A program made the translations under genes and the position numbers. The notes under the pieces are model-generated. The model was not told the DNA's origin. It saw only the letters and a list, made by a program, of their open reading frames with translations, and ran no database searches. This document shows positions 38,014-45,869 of a stretch of DNA of 64,000 bases, one piece after another; within the stretch, counting starts at the first letter, position 1, and the number at the start of each line of letters is the position of its first letter. This DNA is from a bacterium (GTDB lineage Bacteria; Verrucomicrobiota; Verrucomicrobiia; Limisphaerales; UBA11358): the NCBI GenBank assembly GCA_021813325.1, contig JAKALA010000001.1:62001-126000 (forward strand), in the 5' to 3' direction.

Positions 38014-38343
38014 TTACTCAAAATCGTAAACCAAAACCTTCTTCACAAACGGCTTCACGCAGTGCTCGATGAATTCCAGATGCTGGGGATGCACCTGATA
38101 ATCATCCTGCGCCTTTTTGCTGGTGAACACCGTATTGAGCGCCACCTGATACGTTTGATCCACGACCGGACGATGGCTGCCCACCATTTTGCCGACGTGA
38201 AAATGCGTCATGCCCGGAATGCTTTTGAGAAATTGATTGGCGCCCGCGATCACCGCGTCGGCGGCCTCGGGTTTCGCCGGATCGGTCCAAAAAATGACAA
38301 TATGACTGAAACGGGTGACAACTTGTGATAAATTCGATTCCAT
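38014..38343 (-). CDS. Dabb (stress-responsive alpha/beta barrel) family protein with altered 5' end
   Basis: FSHIVIFWTDPAKPEAADAVIAG...HVGKMVGSHRPVVDQTYQVAL...HPQHLEFIEHCVKPFVKKVLVYDFE; the canonical N-terminus is replaced by MESNLSQVVTR. Confidence 0.85.
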   Translation of the reverse strand: MESNLSQVVTRFSHIVIFWTDPAKPEAADAVIAGANQFLKSIPGMTHFHVGKMVGSHRPVVDQTYQVALNTVFTSKKAQDDYQVHPQHLEFIEHCVKPFVKKVLVYDFE

Positions 38344-38345
38344 AT

Positions 38346-39923
38346 ATGCAAAATGCGATTCTCTACCTGCGCTATTCAACCCCAGAGCAGGCAGATGGTC
38401 AATCAGAACAGCGGCAAATTCAAGGTGCGCAGCGATGGTGCAAGGAACACGGTGAAAGGCTGGTCAAAACCTACAAAGATTTGGGTGTTTCAGGCGGCAA
38501 AAATTCAGACGATAGGAAAGCCTTGTCGGCTCTGTTGAATGATTTGACCCGTGGCAGCATTCCCAAGTATTTGCTCATTGAGGATGTTGACCGGCTGTCA
38601 AGAATGCTGCCGCTGGATTCGCTGAATTTGATTTCAAAAATACTCGATTACGGCGTGACCATTGTTTCGTTGCGAGACAATCAAACCCTGACCAAAGACA
38701 ACTGGCAATCGTCGCAGTCGTTTTTGATTCTCACGCTGAAAACCACTCTTGCAAATGAAGAACGGCAGAAGCGAATTTTCCGTGGTAGGTCGGCGTGGAA
38801 ACAAAAGCGGCTGGATGCTGCCTCCAAGATTTACACAAAGCGAGTTCCGGGTTGGCTGACCGTGAAAGACGGCAGAGTCGTCAAAATCCCTGAACATGCG
38901 GCAACCGTTAAGAGACTGTTCAAGTTGTCCAGCGAGGGTTTCGGTATTGTGGCGATAATCCGCATGTTCAATGAGCAACGGATAAAATCGTTTCGTGGCA
39001 ACGATTGGAACAAAGCAGTCATCTATAATACGCTGACGAGTGAAGCCGTTTTAGGATGTTTCCAGCCGAAAACTCTTATCAATGGCGAACGTGTTGACGA
39101 CGGGGACAAGATTCCCGATTATTTTCCACGCATCATCGAGGACGATTTGTTCTACTCGGTTCAAGCCAAGCTGAAACAGCGGAACACCTACAAAGGAGCT
39201 GGATACCGATACACGCTGAACCCTGCCAAAAATAATTTGTTTGCTGGCCTGATTAAGTGCGAAAAGTGCGGTGCAAGTTTGATTCACTTGGTCAGGTCAA
39301 GGCACGGTTACAGTTACTTGGTTTGCGCCAACGCTCACAAACACAAGAAATGCTCTTACAAGGTGGTTGCGACGAATGTTTTGGAAGATTGTTTTCAGGT
39401 GTTCTTAACCGATAATCGTATATTCAAAACGTTCGAGAAGCCGTCGAATACCGCTGCGGCGACACGATTACAGATTGAAGGGGTAAAAAAGCAGTTGGCA
39501 AAATTCATGTCGCTCATCGAAGGCTCGGATGGAACTCCACCAAAGACGATTTTGAAACGGCTTCAAGAATTGGAATTGCAGCAATCTGAACTTGAGAAAA
39601 AATTAGGCGCGGACATTGCCAAAGACAAACTCTCGGCGAGCATTCCCGGCAAGTTCGAGGAATTTTGCAAAGAGATGGAAGCGAACATTGGCAATCCAAT
39701 GGGACGGGCAAAAATCGCCTCAATCCTGAAAGACCTGATTTCAAAGATTGTCGTCAATCCGGCAAAATGCACGATGGCTGTTCATTGGGCGCATGGTGGC
39801 GCACAGAGCGTTGACCGCATTCAATGGGATAAGAAGTCGAAGGAATTTTGGCACCTGTTCTCAAATGGGCTGCGTGATTTCAGTCAGCCCACATACGATT
39901 TGATGTCGCTTCACAAGAAATAG
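38346..39923 (+). CDS. large serine recombinase / site-specific integrase
   Basis: AILYLRYSTPEQADGQSEQRQIQGAQRW resolvase N-terminus with catalytic Ser; recombinase domain; zinc ribbon LIKCEKCGASLIHLVRSRHGYSYLVCANAHKHKKCSYKVV; C-terminal coiled coil. Confidence 0.94.
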   Translation: MQNAILYLRYSTPEQADGQSEQRQIQGAQRWCKEHGERLVKTYKDLGVSGGKNSDDRKALSALLNDLTRGSIPKYLLIEDVDRLSRMLPLDSLNLISKILDYGVTIVSLRDNQTLTKDNWQSSQSFLILTLKTTLANEERQKRIFRGRSAWKQKRLDAASKIYTKRVPGWLTVKDGRVVKIPEHAATVKRLFKLSSEGFGIVAIIRMFNEQRIKSFRGNDWNKAVIYNTLTSEAVLGCFQPKTLINGERVDDGDKIPDYFPRIIEDDLFYSVQAKLKQRNTYKGAGYRYTLNPAKNNLFAGLIKCEKCGASLIHLVRSRHGYSYLVCANAHKHKKCSYKVVATNVLEDCFQVFLTDNRIFKTFEKPSNTAAATRLQIEGVKKQLAKFMSLIEGSDGTPPKTILKRLQELELQQSELEKKLGADIAKDKLSASIPGKFEEFCKEMEANIGNPMGRAKIASILKDLISKIVVNPAKCTMAVHWAHGGAQSVDRIQWDKKSKEFWHLFSNGLRDFSQPTYDLMSLHKK

Positions 39924-40015
39924 CAATTTTTTTGCTCCCCGCTTGCCGGTATTGCGCCCCCGTGTTCCAGTCCAGTCACGCCGAACGAATCGGCACGAAA
40001 CAACAAATCAAAACT

Positions 40016-40414
40016 ATGAAGACTGACACGAAGAACAAAAACAAGAACGCCACCGCCGCCCTCGCCGACATCAACGCTCAAATCGAGGCGTTGAACCAAA
40101 AGCGCATCGGATTGGCCGAACCGCTCAAAGCCCGCTACGCAGAACTCCGCACGGAACTGGCCGACATGGAGACGGAAATTCGTCAACTGGATCCCGTGTG
40201 GAAACCCGAACCAACGAAGCCGAAGGCCGAGACAACGATTGCCGAGATTCTCACGGCGCATGGTTCGCCGATGGCAGCCGAGGAAATCATTCAGGCGGTT
40301 GGCAACGTGTTCACGCCTTGGAAGGTGAAGAACACGCTGAAAAAGAAATCCACCGGCGCAAAAGCCGTGTTCACGTTTGCCGATGGCAAATACACGGTCA
40401 AGGCCACGGCCTAA
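40016..40414 (+). CDS. hypothetical protein with N-terminal coiled coil and C-terminal winged-helix-like (HARE-HTH-like) domain
   Basis: TTIAEILTAHGSPMAAEEIIQAVGNVFTPWKVKNTLKKKSTGAKAVFTFADGKYTV resembles HARE-HTH-type wHTH. Confidence 0.65.
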   Translation: MKTDTKNKNKNATAALADINAQIEALNQKRIGLAEPLKARYAELRTELADMETEIRQLDPVWKPEPTKPKAETTIAEILTAHGSPMAAEEIIQAVGNVFTPWKVKNTLKKKSTGAKAVFTFADGKYTVKATA

Positions 40415-40432
40415 ACCACGAATCCACTTCAC

Positions 40433-40460
40433 GACCCCGGCAAGTGGCCGGGGTCTTTTT
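40433..40460 (+). terminator. intrinsic terminator
   Basis: GACCCCGGC AAGTG GCCGGGGTC TTTTT; perfect 9-bp stem. Confidence 0.88.
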
Positions 40461-40698
40461 ATGCGGTCAAAGAATCCAAACCACGGTTTTTTTGCCTCTG
40501 CGGGGGTGTCCAGCACTTGACTTGTGATTTTCTCCTTTATTCATGCGGGGGAAAAAATTCAACAAAATTTTCCGCCCGGAAATCCCTGATATTTCAGGGG
40601 GTGGATTGAAATTCGCATTTAACGCCAATGGTTTTATGAAGTGGCCTTAACCAGCCCGCAGCGTTTGACTTGGTTTGAAAGTCTGATTGAATGGGAGA

Positions 40699-43600
40699 AT
40701 GGATAAAATATGCACACCACCACCAATAGCAGAAATTCAACCAGTAACGCCGCCCCCTGCGGCTCAACCCCAGATGACATTGGATGACTACGCCAAGGCC
40801 ATTAACGAGGCGCACCGGAATTGTGAGGCCATTGATAGGGAATCCAAAAAGAAAGGCCGTGAGGCTGTCCAATGGGCTTACAAGGCCGGTCAACACCTGA
40901 ATGTCATCAAAGACCTTGTTCCGCATGGTGAGTGGCTGCCTTGGTTAAAACAGAACTGTCCAGAAATCAAGGAACGGACGGCGCAACGATATATGGTGGC
41001 GGCCAAAAACGTCCGTGGGTCGGATTTGGAGCATTTTACAGGTGTCCGACAATACGAAATTGCGACTGGCGCACGGTCGCCCGAAAAAATTGATAAAGCC
41101 CCCGACGCCATGGACGGCGAAGCGGCCAAGCCTGACGACGCCAACACGCCGGACATCATCCTCGCTTCGATGCAACGAGGATTTGCTACCCTGCAAAAGC
41201 AATATACCAGTCTGGTAACACTTCATCCCAAATTGCAGCCGCATCTTTTGGGAATTGATTTGAATTGGTCATTGCCGATTTTATTGCAACGCTGGCAGTA
41301 TCCTCTCGGCGACGCCTTCGATTTTTTCAATTTTCCTTGGACTCCGGCAGTGTGTGTTCGGTGCGGCCATATCCGGCAAGACGAGGAAGTTTTTGTCCCG
41401 ATTCATCATTGGGTTCCCGAATACGCTCATCGTAACGAATGGTGCGATGTCTGCGCCGAGGAATACCATGACAAAGAAGAGACTTTCGACTTGGGCGAGG
41501 AAATTAAATTGCTCGTCAAAAATCTGAACGAATTGAAATCACTACCGGCGAAAGATTACACCCTCGCCCAAAAACTGTATCAGTTGCAGCAGACCAAAAT
41601 CGCCGAACCCGCCGCCATTACAGCCGCTGAAAACAATGTGTGGGTGCCGACGGATTTGAACAACGAAGAAGTGACGGTTGAAGAGATTGGGCGATTGTCG
41701 CCCAAGATTGTGATAGCGAATGACGATGAGACAAAGACGCTCTGGAACATTTACCGGCACTTCGTATCGTCAGCGGTCAACAATCTGCCACCAACTCGAA
41801 ATGTGCGATTTTTGGTGGTGGATGATTCAAAGCCAAACAAGCCGGTTCTTGGCGTCGGTAATATCAGTGGCGACTTCCTGGCTCTTGGTGAACGTGATGA
41901 GTTTATCGGTTGGACGGCAGAACAACGCAACGCTGGCAAATTGAAGCATACCGCTGTCGGTTCAACCATCATCGCCACACAACCTTTTGGCTCAAACTTC
42001 AACGGCGGCAAACTCATCGCTGCGCTCATCACCAGTCAGATGCTCGCCACCGCCACCGCGTTTGCGACGGTTCAAACCAAGTCCACGCAGGACAAACCGT
42101 GGCGGGTGTTCTTGTTGTCCGACGTGCAAAATTTGGACGCGACCACGCACTACCAAAGCGAGGTGTATGAAAACGCTGGCGGAGATTTCATCGGCGATGA
42201 CGATGACGGGTCTTCCGAAAGCCAGACGTGGGTTAATTACAACCACGTTTGGGTTGCAGGAATTGGCGGTGCCGGTTCTGAATACAACAACTGGCAAAAT
42301 GATTATTGGGATTATCAGGGAAACCACAGCGGCAGCGCAGGTGGTATGAATGGGAACATGGTTTGGGATTGGAGCGGTTGGGGTGAAGAAGTCGGCTCTA
42401 ACAATGACGGCACGACCACCACCGGATTCACGAACACGCTCTGGATTTGGGATAGAATCGGCAACGAGCATTGCAACGTCAGCGACCCCGTGAACAAAAC
42501 TTGGGACAATGATTATTCAGCTTGGGATGACGACAACGAAAAGGGCAGCCAGCATGACACCTATACGCGGACGGCGGACACCACTTGGCACGTTCAGACC
42601 GGCGGCAAGGCGATTCCTGGTCGTCAAAACTTGTGGCAGTTCAACGGCTCGGTTTGGGAGATACTTGACAAGCGGGCGGTGCCGCAGTTTGTTGGAGCAT
42701 CCATGCGTGAAGTCACCAACAAGACGCAGATTGCGATTGGCAGCCTCGGCAACTTGAAGGCCGACGGCAATCTATGGCTGACTTTGCCGGATGACGTGGA
42801 GAAGGACATCACGCCCACTGTCGGGGGAAAAGATTTCTTCACGTTCAGCGTGGGCGGGCAGAAATATCCGTTGACCATCTTGGCGAACGGCAATGATTTG
42901 TCTGTGACTAATCCTGAATTTTGTGCTGGGCAGCAAGTGAACTTCACATTTGACGGCCTGCCTATGGGTAGCGTTTCCAATATGCTTGGCAAGTGGAGCC
43001 TGCCGACCAAGTATGTCAACGAACAGTGGCAACATCTGCAATATGTCGTTACGGAGCCGATTAGCGGGGCTGGTTATTGGGAACCTTACGGTTCGGTGAA
43101 TTATCGAATCAACGCTGCCCTACTGGAAAACACCAATCAGACATCCTGCTGGTTTGTGAATGGAAACGGCGGACACGTTACCGTTGGTTTGAGCCTTCAA
43201 TTTCCAAATGGGCAGTTTGTAAGTGTTGCCGCCAATGGGGATTTTTCGGTTTTTCGCCCCACAGTTTCAAATTTTGTTCCAGACAATCCAATCAGTGTCG
43301 TGCTTGATACAAATGCTTTGCCAAGCATTTACTTGGGTTTGGGCGATGCGGGAGGTGGCGGTGGCGGTATGGGGTGGTCTTTAGACGTGCATTGGAAAAC
43401 AAATTTCAACGGGACATTTTTTTTCACGCAGTTGATTGACCGTGAATGGTCATGGGACATTACAACATTTCACCTGCCACGCTCACGTTCCACTGGCGGG
43501 TTTTGGCTCGACAATGGAAACCCATATACCGCAGCAAGCATTTTTGACACATCCGCATTGAGGAATCCCAAATATGTGGCGACACTATCTTTTGGTGATG

Positions 43601-43848
43601 GCCCGTCATTAACCGACTCCTTCTATTCGTTTGCTGATTTGAACGATTCGTTCAACACATATCTTGAATTTCAACCGCCGGGCGGAATTCCGGTAACAAT
43701 AGGACGAATTACTTGGGGATGGCACGGGCAAACCGCCGTTTCTGGTGGTATATGGTCTTTGGCCAGAGGCGACGTTACTGGGCCGAGTTTGGATTCTGCT
43801 GACGATACGTTTCCAGAATGGACAACCGTTTATTACAACTCGAATTAA
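40699..43848 (+). CDS. chimeric ORF: DUF3102-like N-terminus, DruA/DUF4338-like middle, extracellular-type C-terminal region
   Basis: INEAHRNCEAIDRESKKKGREAVQWAYKAGQHLNVIKDLVPHGEWLPWLKQNCPEIKERTAQRYM (DUF3102-like); VRFLVVDDSKPNKPVLGVGNISGDFLALGERDEFIGWTAEQRNAGKLKH (DruA-like); W/N/G-rich C-terminus. Confidence 0.7.
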   Translation: MDKICTPPPIAEIQPVTPPPAAQPQMTLDDYAKAINEAHRNCEAIDRESKKKGREAVQWAYKAGQHLNVIKDLVPHGEWLPWLKQNCPEIKERTAQRYMVAAKNVRGSDLEHFTGVRQYEIATGARSPEKIDKAPDAMDGEAAKPDDANTPDIILASMQRGFATLQKQYTSLVTLHPKLQPHLLGIDLNWSLPILLQRWQYPLGDAFDFFNFPWTPAVCVRCGHIRQDEEVFVPIHHWVPEYAHRNEWCDVCAEEYHDKEETFDLGEEIKLLVKNLNELKSLPAKDYTLAQKLYQLQQTKIAEPAAITAAENNVWVPTDLNNEEVTVEEIGRLSPKIVIANDDETKTLWNIYRHFVSSAVNNLPPTRNVRFLVVDDSKPNKPVLGVGNISGDFLALGERDEFIGWTAEQRNAGKLKHTAVGSTIIATQPFGSNFNGGKLIAALITSQMLATATAFATVQTKSTQDKPWRVFLLSDVQNLDATTHYQSEVYENAGGDFIGDDDDGSSESQTWVNYNHVWVAGIGGAGSEYNNWQNDYWDYQGNHSGSAGGMNGNMVWDWSGWGEEVGSNNDGTTTTGFTNTLWIWDRIGNEHCNVSDPVNKTWDNDYSAWDDDNEKGSQHDTYTRTADTTWHVQTGGKAIPGRQNLWQFNGSVWEILDKRAVPQFVGASMREVTNKTQIAIGSLGNLKADGNLWLTLPDDVEKDITPTVGGKDFFTFSVGGQKYPLTILANGNDLSVTNPEFCAGQQVNFTFDGLPMGSVSNMLGKWSLPTKYVNEQWQHLQYVVTEPISGAGYWEPYGSVNYRINAALLENTNQTSCWFVNGNGGHVTVGLSLQFPNGQFVSVAANGDFSVFRPTVSNFVPDNPISVVLDTNALPSIYLGLGDAGGGGGGMGWSLDVHWKTNFNGTFFFTQLIDREWSWDITTFHLPRSRSTGGFWLDNGNPYTAASIFDTSALRNPKYVATLSFGDGPSLTDSFYSFADLNDSFNTYLEFQPPGGIPVTIGRITWGWHGQTAVSGGIWSLARGDVTGPSLDSADDTFPEWTTVYYNSN

Positions 43849-43861
43849 ACACTCTCGAACT

Positions 43862-44512
43862 ATGAACACAGTGAACATTTTTTCAGGCAGCCACTGTTTT
43901 CGGCTGGCCATTGCAATTTGGATTTTTGTTGTCGGAATTATCCGTGCCGAACCGCCAGCGGGAGAAGGAACCGATTTTTCGGGAAGCAATGTTTTTTGGG
44001 GAAATGAAACAAATGGGGTTAGCATGGCATTATTGATTGCCCCCCTATCAAGTTCAAATCACATCCCGATTCATTGCACGCCAATCGTCAAAAACAGCCG
44101 GAGCCAAACAAACCATCTATGGGTTTGGTTTCCGCCGATAGAAAGCTGCTGCCAGATGAGCTTGATGGACGAAAAAGGCAATTCAGTTCCCAAGACAGCC
44201 AAAGGCAAATCACTTGGCAAACCCATTACCGAACCAATGATGTTAAAAGATGGCCCCAACATCAAAGCAGGCTACAAGATGCGACCATTGGCTCAAAACA
44301 AAGCAGAAATGCTTTCTGATTTCTCGTTTGACTTGCAGAATTATTTTGAAGTCACCAACTCTGGCAAATACCGACTGACATACGAAATGCGGGTTGTTCT
44401 GCCACAAAGCACCAAAGGAAATTACATGACGCTTCACACTACGAATTTGCCGACGACAGCCCTTCCGTCAGTGATAGCCGATGTAGAAGTTAAACCCTCT
44501 ACTGGAAAATAA
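43862..44512 (+). CDS. secreted hypothetical protein
   Basis: Signal-peptide-like MNTVNIFSGSHCFRLAIAIWIFVVGIIRA; complete ORF starting shortly after the chimeric ORF. Confidence 0.65.
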   Translation: MNTVNIFSGSHCFRLAIAIWIFVVGIIRAEPPAGEGTDFSGSNVFWGNETNGVSMALLIAPLSSSNHIPIHCTPIVKNSRSQTNHLWVWFPPIESCCQMSLMDEKGNSVPKTAKGKSLGKPITEPMMLKDGPNIKAGYKMRPLAQNKAEMLSDFSFDLQNYFEVTNSGKYRLTYEMRVVLPQSTKGNYMTLHTTNLPTTALPSVIADVEVKPSTGK

Positions 44513-44671
44513 TTTTCCCCGCCGCCTCAACGGCCAGAATGTTCTTAACCGGCTTCTGGCCGTTTTTGCTAACGACTTTGTGTTCTGGCTCGCTGCCGCT
44601 GTCGCCATCTTCAAAAGGCCACTTGGTTGTGACAATGAAGTGTGATGGATTGACTGCTGTAGGGTGGTTTG

Positions 44672-44702
44672 ACGTTCATCACTGTGATCCAGTGATGAAC
44701 GT
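44672..44702. repeat. perfect 12-bp inverted repeat near the element right end
   Basis: ACGTTCATCACT GTGATCC AGTGATGAACGT. Confidence 0.75.
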
Positions 44703-44939
44703 GGAATGGGGTTGGCCGTTGCGCCAGACGGTCTGGGGCGTATCGTCTTCCGTTGGGGATAGGGTTTTAGGGGTGGAGCGTCAGGAATCCAATAAAACCA
44801 AGGGGATTTAATTTATTGTCACTAAAGTAAAACATATTACGGTGTGTGAAAACATGTTAAAATTGAATCAATAAACATTCCGAGCTTAAAGGAATTTTTC
44901 TTTCGTGAGTTTCGCGCACTTCGCCACTAAAATCGCTCC

Positions 44940-45869
44940 ATGAGCAAAACCGCATTGTTATTCGCTGGTCAAGGCGCCCAAGTCGTCGGCATGGGCAAAG
45001 ATCTGGCCGAGAAATTTCCCGGCGCCAAGGCGTGGTTCGACCGCGCCAACGCCGCCCTCGGCTACGATCTCGCCAGCGTCTGTTTCAACGGCCCGGAAGC
45101 CGATCTCACCAAAACCGAGAATGCGCAGCCCGGGATTTTTCTCGTCAGTTGGGTTTGCTTTGAACTGCTCAAAGAGCAGGTGCCGAATTTGAAATTCGAC
45201 GCCACCGCCGGCCTTTCGCTCGGCGAATTCACGGCGCTCACGGCGGCGGGCGCGATGAGTTTTGAGGACGGACTGCGCGTGGTGCGCCAGCGCGGCAAAT
45301 TCATGCAGGAAGCCTGCGATGTCACCCAAGGCGGCATGGCGGCCATTATCGGTCTCGACGAAGCGCTCACGCGCGAAGCCTGCGCCGAAGCGGGCGTGGT
45401 GCTCGCCAACTTGAATTGTCCCGGCCAGCTCGTGATTTCCGGTGAAGCCGAGAAGATTGCCAGGGCCTGTGAAATCGCCAAAGCCAAGGGCGCCAAACGC
45501 GCTTTGCCGTTGACCGTGGCGGGCGCTTACCATTCGCCGCTCATGGCCAGCGCGCAGCCGAAATTGCAGGCTGAATTGGAAAAAGTCACCCTGAACACGA
45601 CGAATGTGCCGGTGATTTCCAACGTCAATGCGCGGCCGCATGGCGTGCCCAGCCGCATCACCAGCCAGTTGGTGGAGCAGGTTTGCGCATCGGTGCGTTG
45701 GGAGGAATCCATGCGCGTCCTGTTGTCGCAAGGTTTCACGCGATTCATTGAACTCGGACCCGGCACGGCGTTGAGCGGCTTCATGAAGCGCATCGACAAA
45801 ACGGCGCCCCTGCTCAACATTGCTGACGCCGCCAGCTTGGAAGCCACGGCCAACGCACTTTCGGGTTAA
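44940..45869 (+). CDS. fabD: malonyl-CoA:ACP transacylase
   Basis: ALLFAGQGAQVVGMGKDLAEKFP, GLSLGEFTAL, GAYHSPLM. Confidence 0.96.
   Translation: MSKTALLFAGQGAQVVGMGKDLAEKFPGAKAWFDRANAALGYDLASVCFNGPEADLTKTENAQPGIFLVSWVCFELLKEQVPNLKFDATAGLSLGEFTALTAAGAMSFEDGLRVVRQRGKFMQEACDVTQGGMAAIIGLDEALTREACAEAGVVLANLNCPGQLVISGEAEKIARACEIAKAKGAKRALPLTVAGAYHSPLMASAQPKLQAELEKVTLNTTNVPVISNVNARPHGVPSRITSQLVEQVCASVRWEESMRVLLSQGFTRFIELGPGTALSGFMKRIDKTAPLLNIADAASLEATANALSG

Follow-up and report, generated by a model that had tools for sequence, protein, structure and literature searches.

A large serine recombinase element at the 5' end of a Dabb gene, probably supplying the gene with a replacement start

Integration into the 5' end of a conserved housekeeping gene, which thereby receives a new promoter and an altered N-terminus, is known for tyrosine-integrase elements, i.e., the SXT/R391 ICEs inserting at the 5' end of prfC and the dusA islands (PMC8409611, PMC4482086). 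The latter are diverse, with the integrase being their sole universal feature (PMC4482086). For large serine recombinases (LSRs), the accessible part of the survey by Durrant et al. 2022 reports diverse LSRs having one conserved coding attB in common and regards the LSR targets as disrupted genes (PMC10083194). The attP of the A118 integrase (Listeria) comprises two ~25-bp half-sites around a central dinucleotide with conserved outer motifs, and in the attB of the Listeria integrase the zinc-domain motif is shifted 5 bp inward (PMC3783163). A further intragenic case, as far as the accessible part of the report describes it, is SPbeta/spsM, a prophage with a serine recombinase inside a coding gene that is restored by excision (PMC4191935).

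We compared these systems with a locus in a 64-kb stretch of DNA (the window), which is part of a 228-kb contig from a draft genome of 123 contigs (G000); all compared genomes are draft assemblies as well. Within the window, an LSR element very probably inserts into the 5' end of a Dabb gene and supplies a replacement start, so that the gene would stay open. It resembles the SXT/R391 elements and dusA islands in its 5'-end target, which is given a new in-frame 5' coding end, and in combining diverse cargo with a common integrase and site. It differs from these in its recombinase, a serine recombinase in place of an SXT- or dusA-family tyrosine integrase, as well as in the target gene, the lack of transfer genes and the presence of relics in sister species. 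With the elements in the accessible part of Durrant et al. it shares the LSR domain architecture and a coding attB common to diverse LSRs; unlike the targets described there, among which Dabb was not encountered, the gene is kept open by an element-borne 5' end. Likewise, SPbeta/spsM, to the extent described in that part, also involves a serine recombinase at an intragenic site, whereas Dabb is open in the integrated form. A search of the open literature, with subscription journals mostly outside it, revealed neither a serine-integrase case with a replaced start nor a Dabb target. Given this coverage, it is weak evidence of novelty, on which the use of a serine integrase and of Dabb as target for such a 5'-repair appears to be new.

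Attachment sites and recombinase

The following features define the locus:

38014-38343, minus strand: Dabb gene in its present readable form (109 aa, PF07876; Pfam 4.4e-19)
38297-38298, minus strand: predicted attL core dinucleotide GT, within a Dabb Val codon, at the peak of the centre scan
38299-38321, minus strand: predicted attP half-site kept at attL, TTGTCACCCGTTTCAGTCATATT, encoding Dabb residues V-T-R-F-S-H-I
38346-39923, plus strand: LSR, 525 aa (Resolvase 3.3e-25, Recombinase 3.5e-16, Zn_ribbon_recom 7.1e-11)
38374-38402, minus strand: candidate outward promoter TTGACC-N17-TTGAAT, in LSR codons 10-20, directed at Dabb
44816-44838, minus strand: predicted attP half-site kept at attR, AATATGTTTTACTTTAGTGACAA; the spacing GT-16-GTGACAA is also found in G032 and in the G003 relic
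44839-44840, minus strand: predicted attR core dinucleotide GT, centre of the attP inverted repeat
44841-44855, minus strand: displaced original Dabb start ATGTTTTCACACACC, like the ATGTTTTCACAC start of empty sites
44940-45869, plus strand: fabD (acyl transferase; Acyl_transf_1 5.6e-36), chromosomal gene flanking attR, beside Dabb in many relatives

A preliminary description of this DNA had proposed a ~6.5-kb integrated element with attL and attR, based on a Dabb gene reading MESNLSQVVTR and then FSHIVIFWTDP (minus strand, from 38343) and on a displaced ATG TTT TCA CAC ACC at 44855-44841 (minus strand). Both sequences are present as described, the latter now heading an orphan 15-codon ORF. 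The comparison with relatives, which provides empty sites and related LSRs at the same site in G032 and G061, established the boundaries of an element of 6,542 bp (38,297-44,840) splitting the start of the Dabb gene. The initial observation is therefore more than a chance coincidence, and its reading as an integration is supported by the compared sequences. The GC content of the element is 0.46-0.54 versus 0.54-0.59 in the adjacent bins on both sides. As the 64-kb window holds no tRNA gene, a tRNA attachment site is not involved.

Joining the inner ends at GT rebuilds an attP of ~48 bp, TTGTCAC-CCGTTTCAGT-CATATT-GT-AATATG-TTTTACTTTA-GTGACAA (predicted sequence TTGTCACCCGTTTCAGTCATATTGTAATATGTTTTACTTTAGTGACAA), which is an inverted repeat of 23+2+23 bp with GT exactly in its centre. 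The 23-bp arms match at 15 of 23 positions (shuffle p ~2e-5), and a scan of the dyad centre over 41 positions gave the best value exactly at GT. For the related element in G032, 12 of 23 arm positions match (p ~0.004), with TTGTCAC and GTGACAA both located 16 bp from GT. These properties, i.e., ~48-50 bp, inverted-repeat arms, and a central dinucleotide common to attL and attR, are those of an LSR-type attP. The flanks joined at GT, ATGTTTTCACACACC-GT-CATTTTTTGG, encode MFSHTVIFW and yield the predicted attB ATGTTTTCACACACCGTCATTTTTTGGACCGATCC, the relatives' version being ATGTTTTCACACGTTGTCATTTTTTGG. The attP resembles that of A118 in its half-sites, central dinucleotide and outer motifs; unlike A118, no clear TTGTCAC shifted by ~5 bp inward was apparent in attB by eye, where a TTTTCAC is located ~11 bp inward.

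The LSR, which would catalyze the recombination and presumably also allow the element to excise, carries an LRYST motif whose S11, invariant in three members, we take to be the catalytic serine of the N-terminal motif. The next-closest LSRs are 35% (G043) and 32% (G038) identical. These two are arranged back-to-back with a YifB/ComM-type gene (by eye), the front end of which is seemingly replaced (L060:9143-9410, L061:11383-11448), an arrangement suggesting that the back-to-back, 5'-replacing layout may reach beyond Dabb.

Empty, occupied and decayed sites in relatives

Many genomes of the same genus share the gene order xer-Dabb-fabD, in the closest cases with the Dabb start within ~100 bp of fabD. 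The uninterrupted fabD-Dabb junction to be expected for an integration site was thus found within the genus, its Dabb start ATG-TTT-TCA-CAC adjoining fabD, and relatives without the element carry a matching empty site instead of a differing sequence. Empty-site starts read ATG TTT TCA CAC GTT GTC (MFSHVV), with ATGTTTTCACACGTTGTCATTTTYTGG or close variants. The Dabb start was readable in 36 genomes of the genus, of which 26 display the canonical M(F/L)SH start; with nine genomes from other families of the order, which are canonical too, this results in 35 canonical Dabb genes for comparison. The other 10 of the 36 have a non-canonical start, and most of them apparently represent occupied or decayed sites.

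Recurrent occupation is evident from two other species. In G061, an LSR with 93% identity is located beside Dabb with the same attP arm, and the element departs from that of the window after the gene for a 132-aa protein. In G032, the LSR beside Dabb is 65% identical and attR lies 9,789 bp away, so that both ends are bounded; its cargo comprises a small serine resolvase, a truncated HsdR, a Cro/C1-type regulator and a lectin/Ig-domain protein. The small resolvase-type enzyme, a second serine recombinase, was observed in the elements of both G032 (L047:4056-4664) and G061 (L063:3256-3918). DNA identity between G000 and G061 amounts to 98% from the core through the attP arm to the LSR start and 87.7% in the LSR, compared with 79.3% in Dabb. 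The mobile part being more alike than Dabb, it appears younger than the host divergence, which argues for separate acquisitions and points to horizontal spread.

Decayed sites were recognized by remnants of the LSR. G070 retains LSR residues 1-29 beside Dabb (52-59% identity, E down to 1.6e-4), adjoining ORFs that resemble an IS66-type element by eye, and G026 an N-terminal remnant RYSTVEPAGGQSE, likewise read by eye. Shorter and weaker traces were found in G033 and G063, and a weak one in G002, with z values of 3.5-4.5 for these three. G003 (L048:5066-5139) harbors a relic of the attR arm only, with its spacing kept and a new ATG and Dabb ~30 bp further on. A Dabb extension was also seen in G029 (L011:762-792), reading MKTSTPKASG with Asn replacing Ser and having no recognizable LSR trace; it could not be tied to the element.

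Dabb start, candidate promoter and alternative readings

The preliminary description had seen Dabb as interrupted. The split itself is confirmed; a plain interruption does not apply because the element equips the gene with another start in frame and with recoded initial residues. The attP half beside Dabb provides an in-frame ATG and a recoded F-S-H-I reaching the Val codon that holds GT, so that positions 38299-38343 (ATG through the Ile codon) are element-derived, while relatives begin directly with MFSH. The start codons of Dabb and LSR stand back-to-back, 2 bp apart. Between ATG and Phe, the extension measures 33 nt in G000, G061, G033, G063 and G002, 42 nt in G032 and G070, and 30 nt in G026, and it is in frame and stop-free in every case. 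The Ser codon of the Dabb start is AGT in G000 and AGY in six of the 10 extended genes (G000, G061, G026, G033, G063, G002), compared with TCN in 35/35 and AGY in 0/35 canonical genes. Since TCN and AGY are not joined by one synonymous change, this supports the element origin of these codons.

A promoter-like sequence in the first LSR codons probably transcribes Dabb, as judged from conservation between loci. TTGACC-N17-TTGAAT, together with one base flanking each hexamer, is invariant in seven occupied or relic loci (G000, G061, G032, G070, G026, G033, G063), most spacer positions being variable. The motif is kept even where the LSR has decayed, is absent from 20 canonical same-genus sites, and has a single exact match in the 64-kb window. 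It emerged only from the cross-locus comparison, as a scan with the sigma-70 consensus gave no promoter. As the hexamers overlap codons for the conserved YST and GQS of the LSR, the protein may account for their invariance wherever the LSR is intact. Upstream of a canonical Dabb gene in another family (G057, L017 upstream of 1794) we observed the similar motif TTGACC-N17-TTAAAT, which could not be tied to the element, and the candidate promoter may accordingly reflect ordinary promoters of this group.

Regarding the core, the preliminary description had joined the flanks at a shared CA, resulting in MFSHIVIFW, and mentioned GT as an alternative. An in-frame Dabb start is indeed restored by joining, reading MFSHTVIFW at GT, and it is this alternative that falls exactly on the attP dyad. 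The same element and mechanism with a CA core (38303-38304/44845-44846) appears clearly improbable, even though CA is common to both ends in the same register, gives the same element length of 6,542 bp with GT 6 bp further along, and restores a sequence closer to the family. CA is 6 bp away from the dyad of the attP arms and would require the hosts of both G000 and G061 to have had CAT ATT, whereas in canonical relatives whose Dabb is at least 80% identical the fifth codon is GTN and the fourth mostly CAC. The Thr in the rebuilt MFSHTVIFW counts against GT, with only Val or Ile occurring in 35/35 canonical relatives; the displaced copy must therefore have drifted or the codon have been unusual. 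Because of the attP symmetry and the codons common to G000 and G061, GT and not CA is the most likely core dinucleotide.

That the integration is site-specific but silences Dabb, its in-frame start being incidental, is unlikely. The consensus promoter scan without a match is in its favor, but the in-frame ATG and the stop-free extensions in 10 genomes, the intact gene beside decayed elements and the promoter motif kept in relics argue against it. An assembly chimera is highly improbable: the 123 contigs of the genome and a chimeric ORF within the element would fit, but G061 and G032 independently show the attL junction, and the one at attR recurs in G032 and, in part, in G003. We assign hardly any probability to a vertically inherited block without insertion, in which Dabb would be naturally N-terminally extended. 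Extended starts in 10/36 same-genus genomes would agree with it; against it stand the close relatives with an empty site, the displaced start at attR, and two intact elements that occupy the same site with differing cargo. Vertical conservation of the whole block, which the preliminary description had named as a counter-case, was thus not found, relatives having different cargo or none.

In the preferred reading of an LSR element replacing the Dabb start, a small integrative element would encode a large serine integrase recombining attP (~48 bp, GT core) with attB in the first dozen Dabb codons. Upon insertion, the first codons with their original ATG would end up next to fabD, at a distance of 6.5 kb, and Dabb would stay open by means of the attP half-site on its side, which would offer an ATG in frame, followed by a short extension and a recoded F-S-H-I that is joined to the host at the Val codon. 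Transcription would probably start from the promoter-like sequence located in the initial LSR codons, with the outward promoter presumably working and Dabb protein being made, and after decay of the element the host would retain the element-derived start as a scar. The wider interpretation, with attP as a gene-repair cassette, an outward promoter in the codons of the integrase catalytic site, neutral insertion and domesticated N-termini after decay, has in our view about even chances. The well-bounded new LSR with its predicted attP, attB and GT core is ready for an integration assay. Judging from this locus, a conserved gene may be hit at its 5' end by a serine integrase and yet not be silenced, as with the SXT-type tyrosine integrases, and insertions of this kind may lastingly alter the N-termini of host proteins. 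Owing to the decayed sites, the fate of borrowed start codons is traceable across sister species.

Cargo genes

Behind the LSR, the element of the window carries the following features:

40016-40414, plus strand: 132-aa protein, long helix and a low-confidence small C-terminal part
40699-43848, plus strand: 1049-aa chimeric ORF, with a weak DUF3102 match at its start, then the front portion of DruA (PF14236) and finally a secreted protein body
42039-42048, plus strand: point of fusion in the chimeric ORF, located within the signal peptide that belongs to the downstream gene
43862-44512, plus strand: 216-aa protein with an N-terminal hydrophobic stretch and no Pfam family, gene order as in G013:C79

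Pfam, PHROGs and NCBIfam scans of the element ORFs yielded no transfer, relaxase or virion genes. A phage, viral or plasmid origin was considered and dismissed, with no close relative among viral contigs, phages and plasmids. The 1049-aa ORF looks like an illegitimate fusion and probably does not work as a Druantia gene. Stand-alone genes in G013:C79 and G032:C100 are homologous to it from exactly 42039 onward, and in both the second part forms a gene of its own, which starts with MKKIIFSIGLML or MKKIFLSIGLML.

The 132-aa protein, poorly modeled by AlphaFold from the single sequence (pLDDT 62), has a homologue of 89% identity behind the LSR of G061, and its gene also follows the LSR of G043 and a second LSR of the window's own genome. 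Its candidacy as an LSR-specific directionality factor was weakened by homologues (L099-L109) located directly after tyrosine-integrase-like genes (by eye) in this order. Occurring beside both integrase types, the gene appears to accompany integrase modules generally in this group, and members of the family are sometimes followed by DUF3102 or DruA genes (L103, L105).
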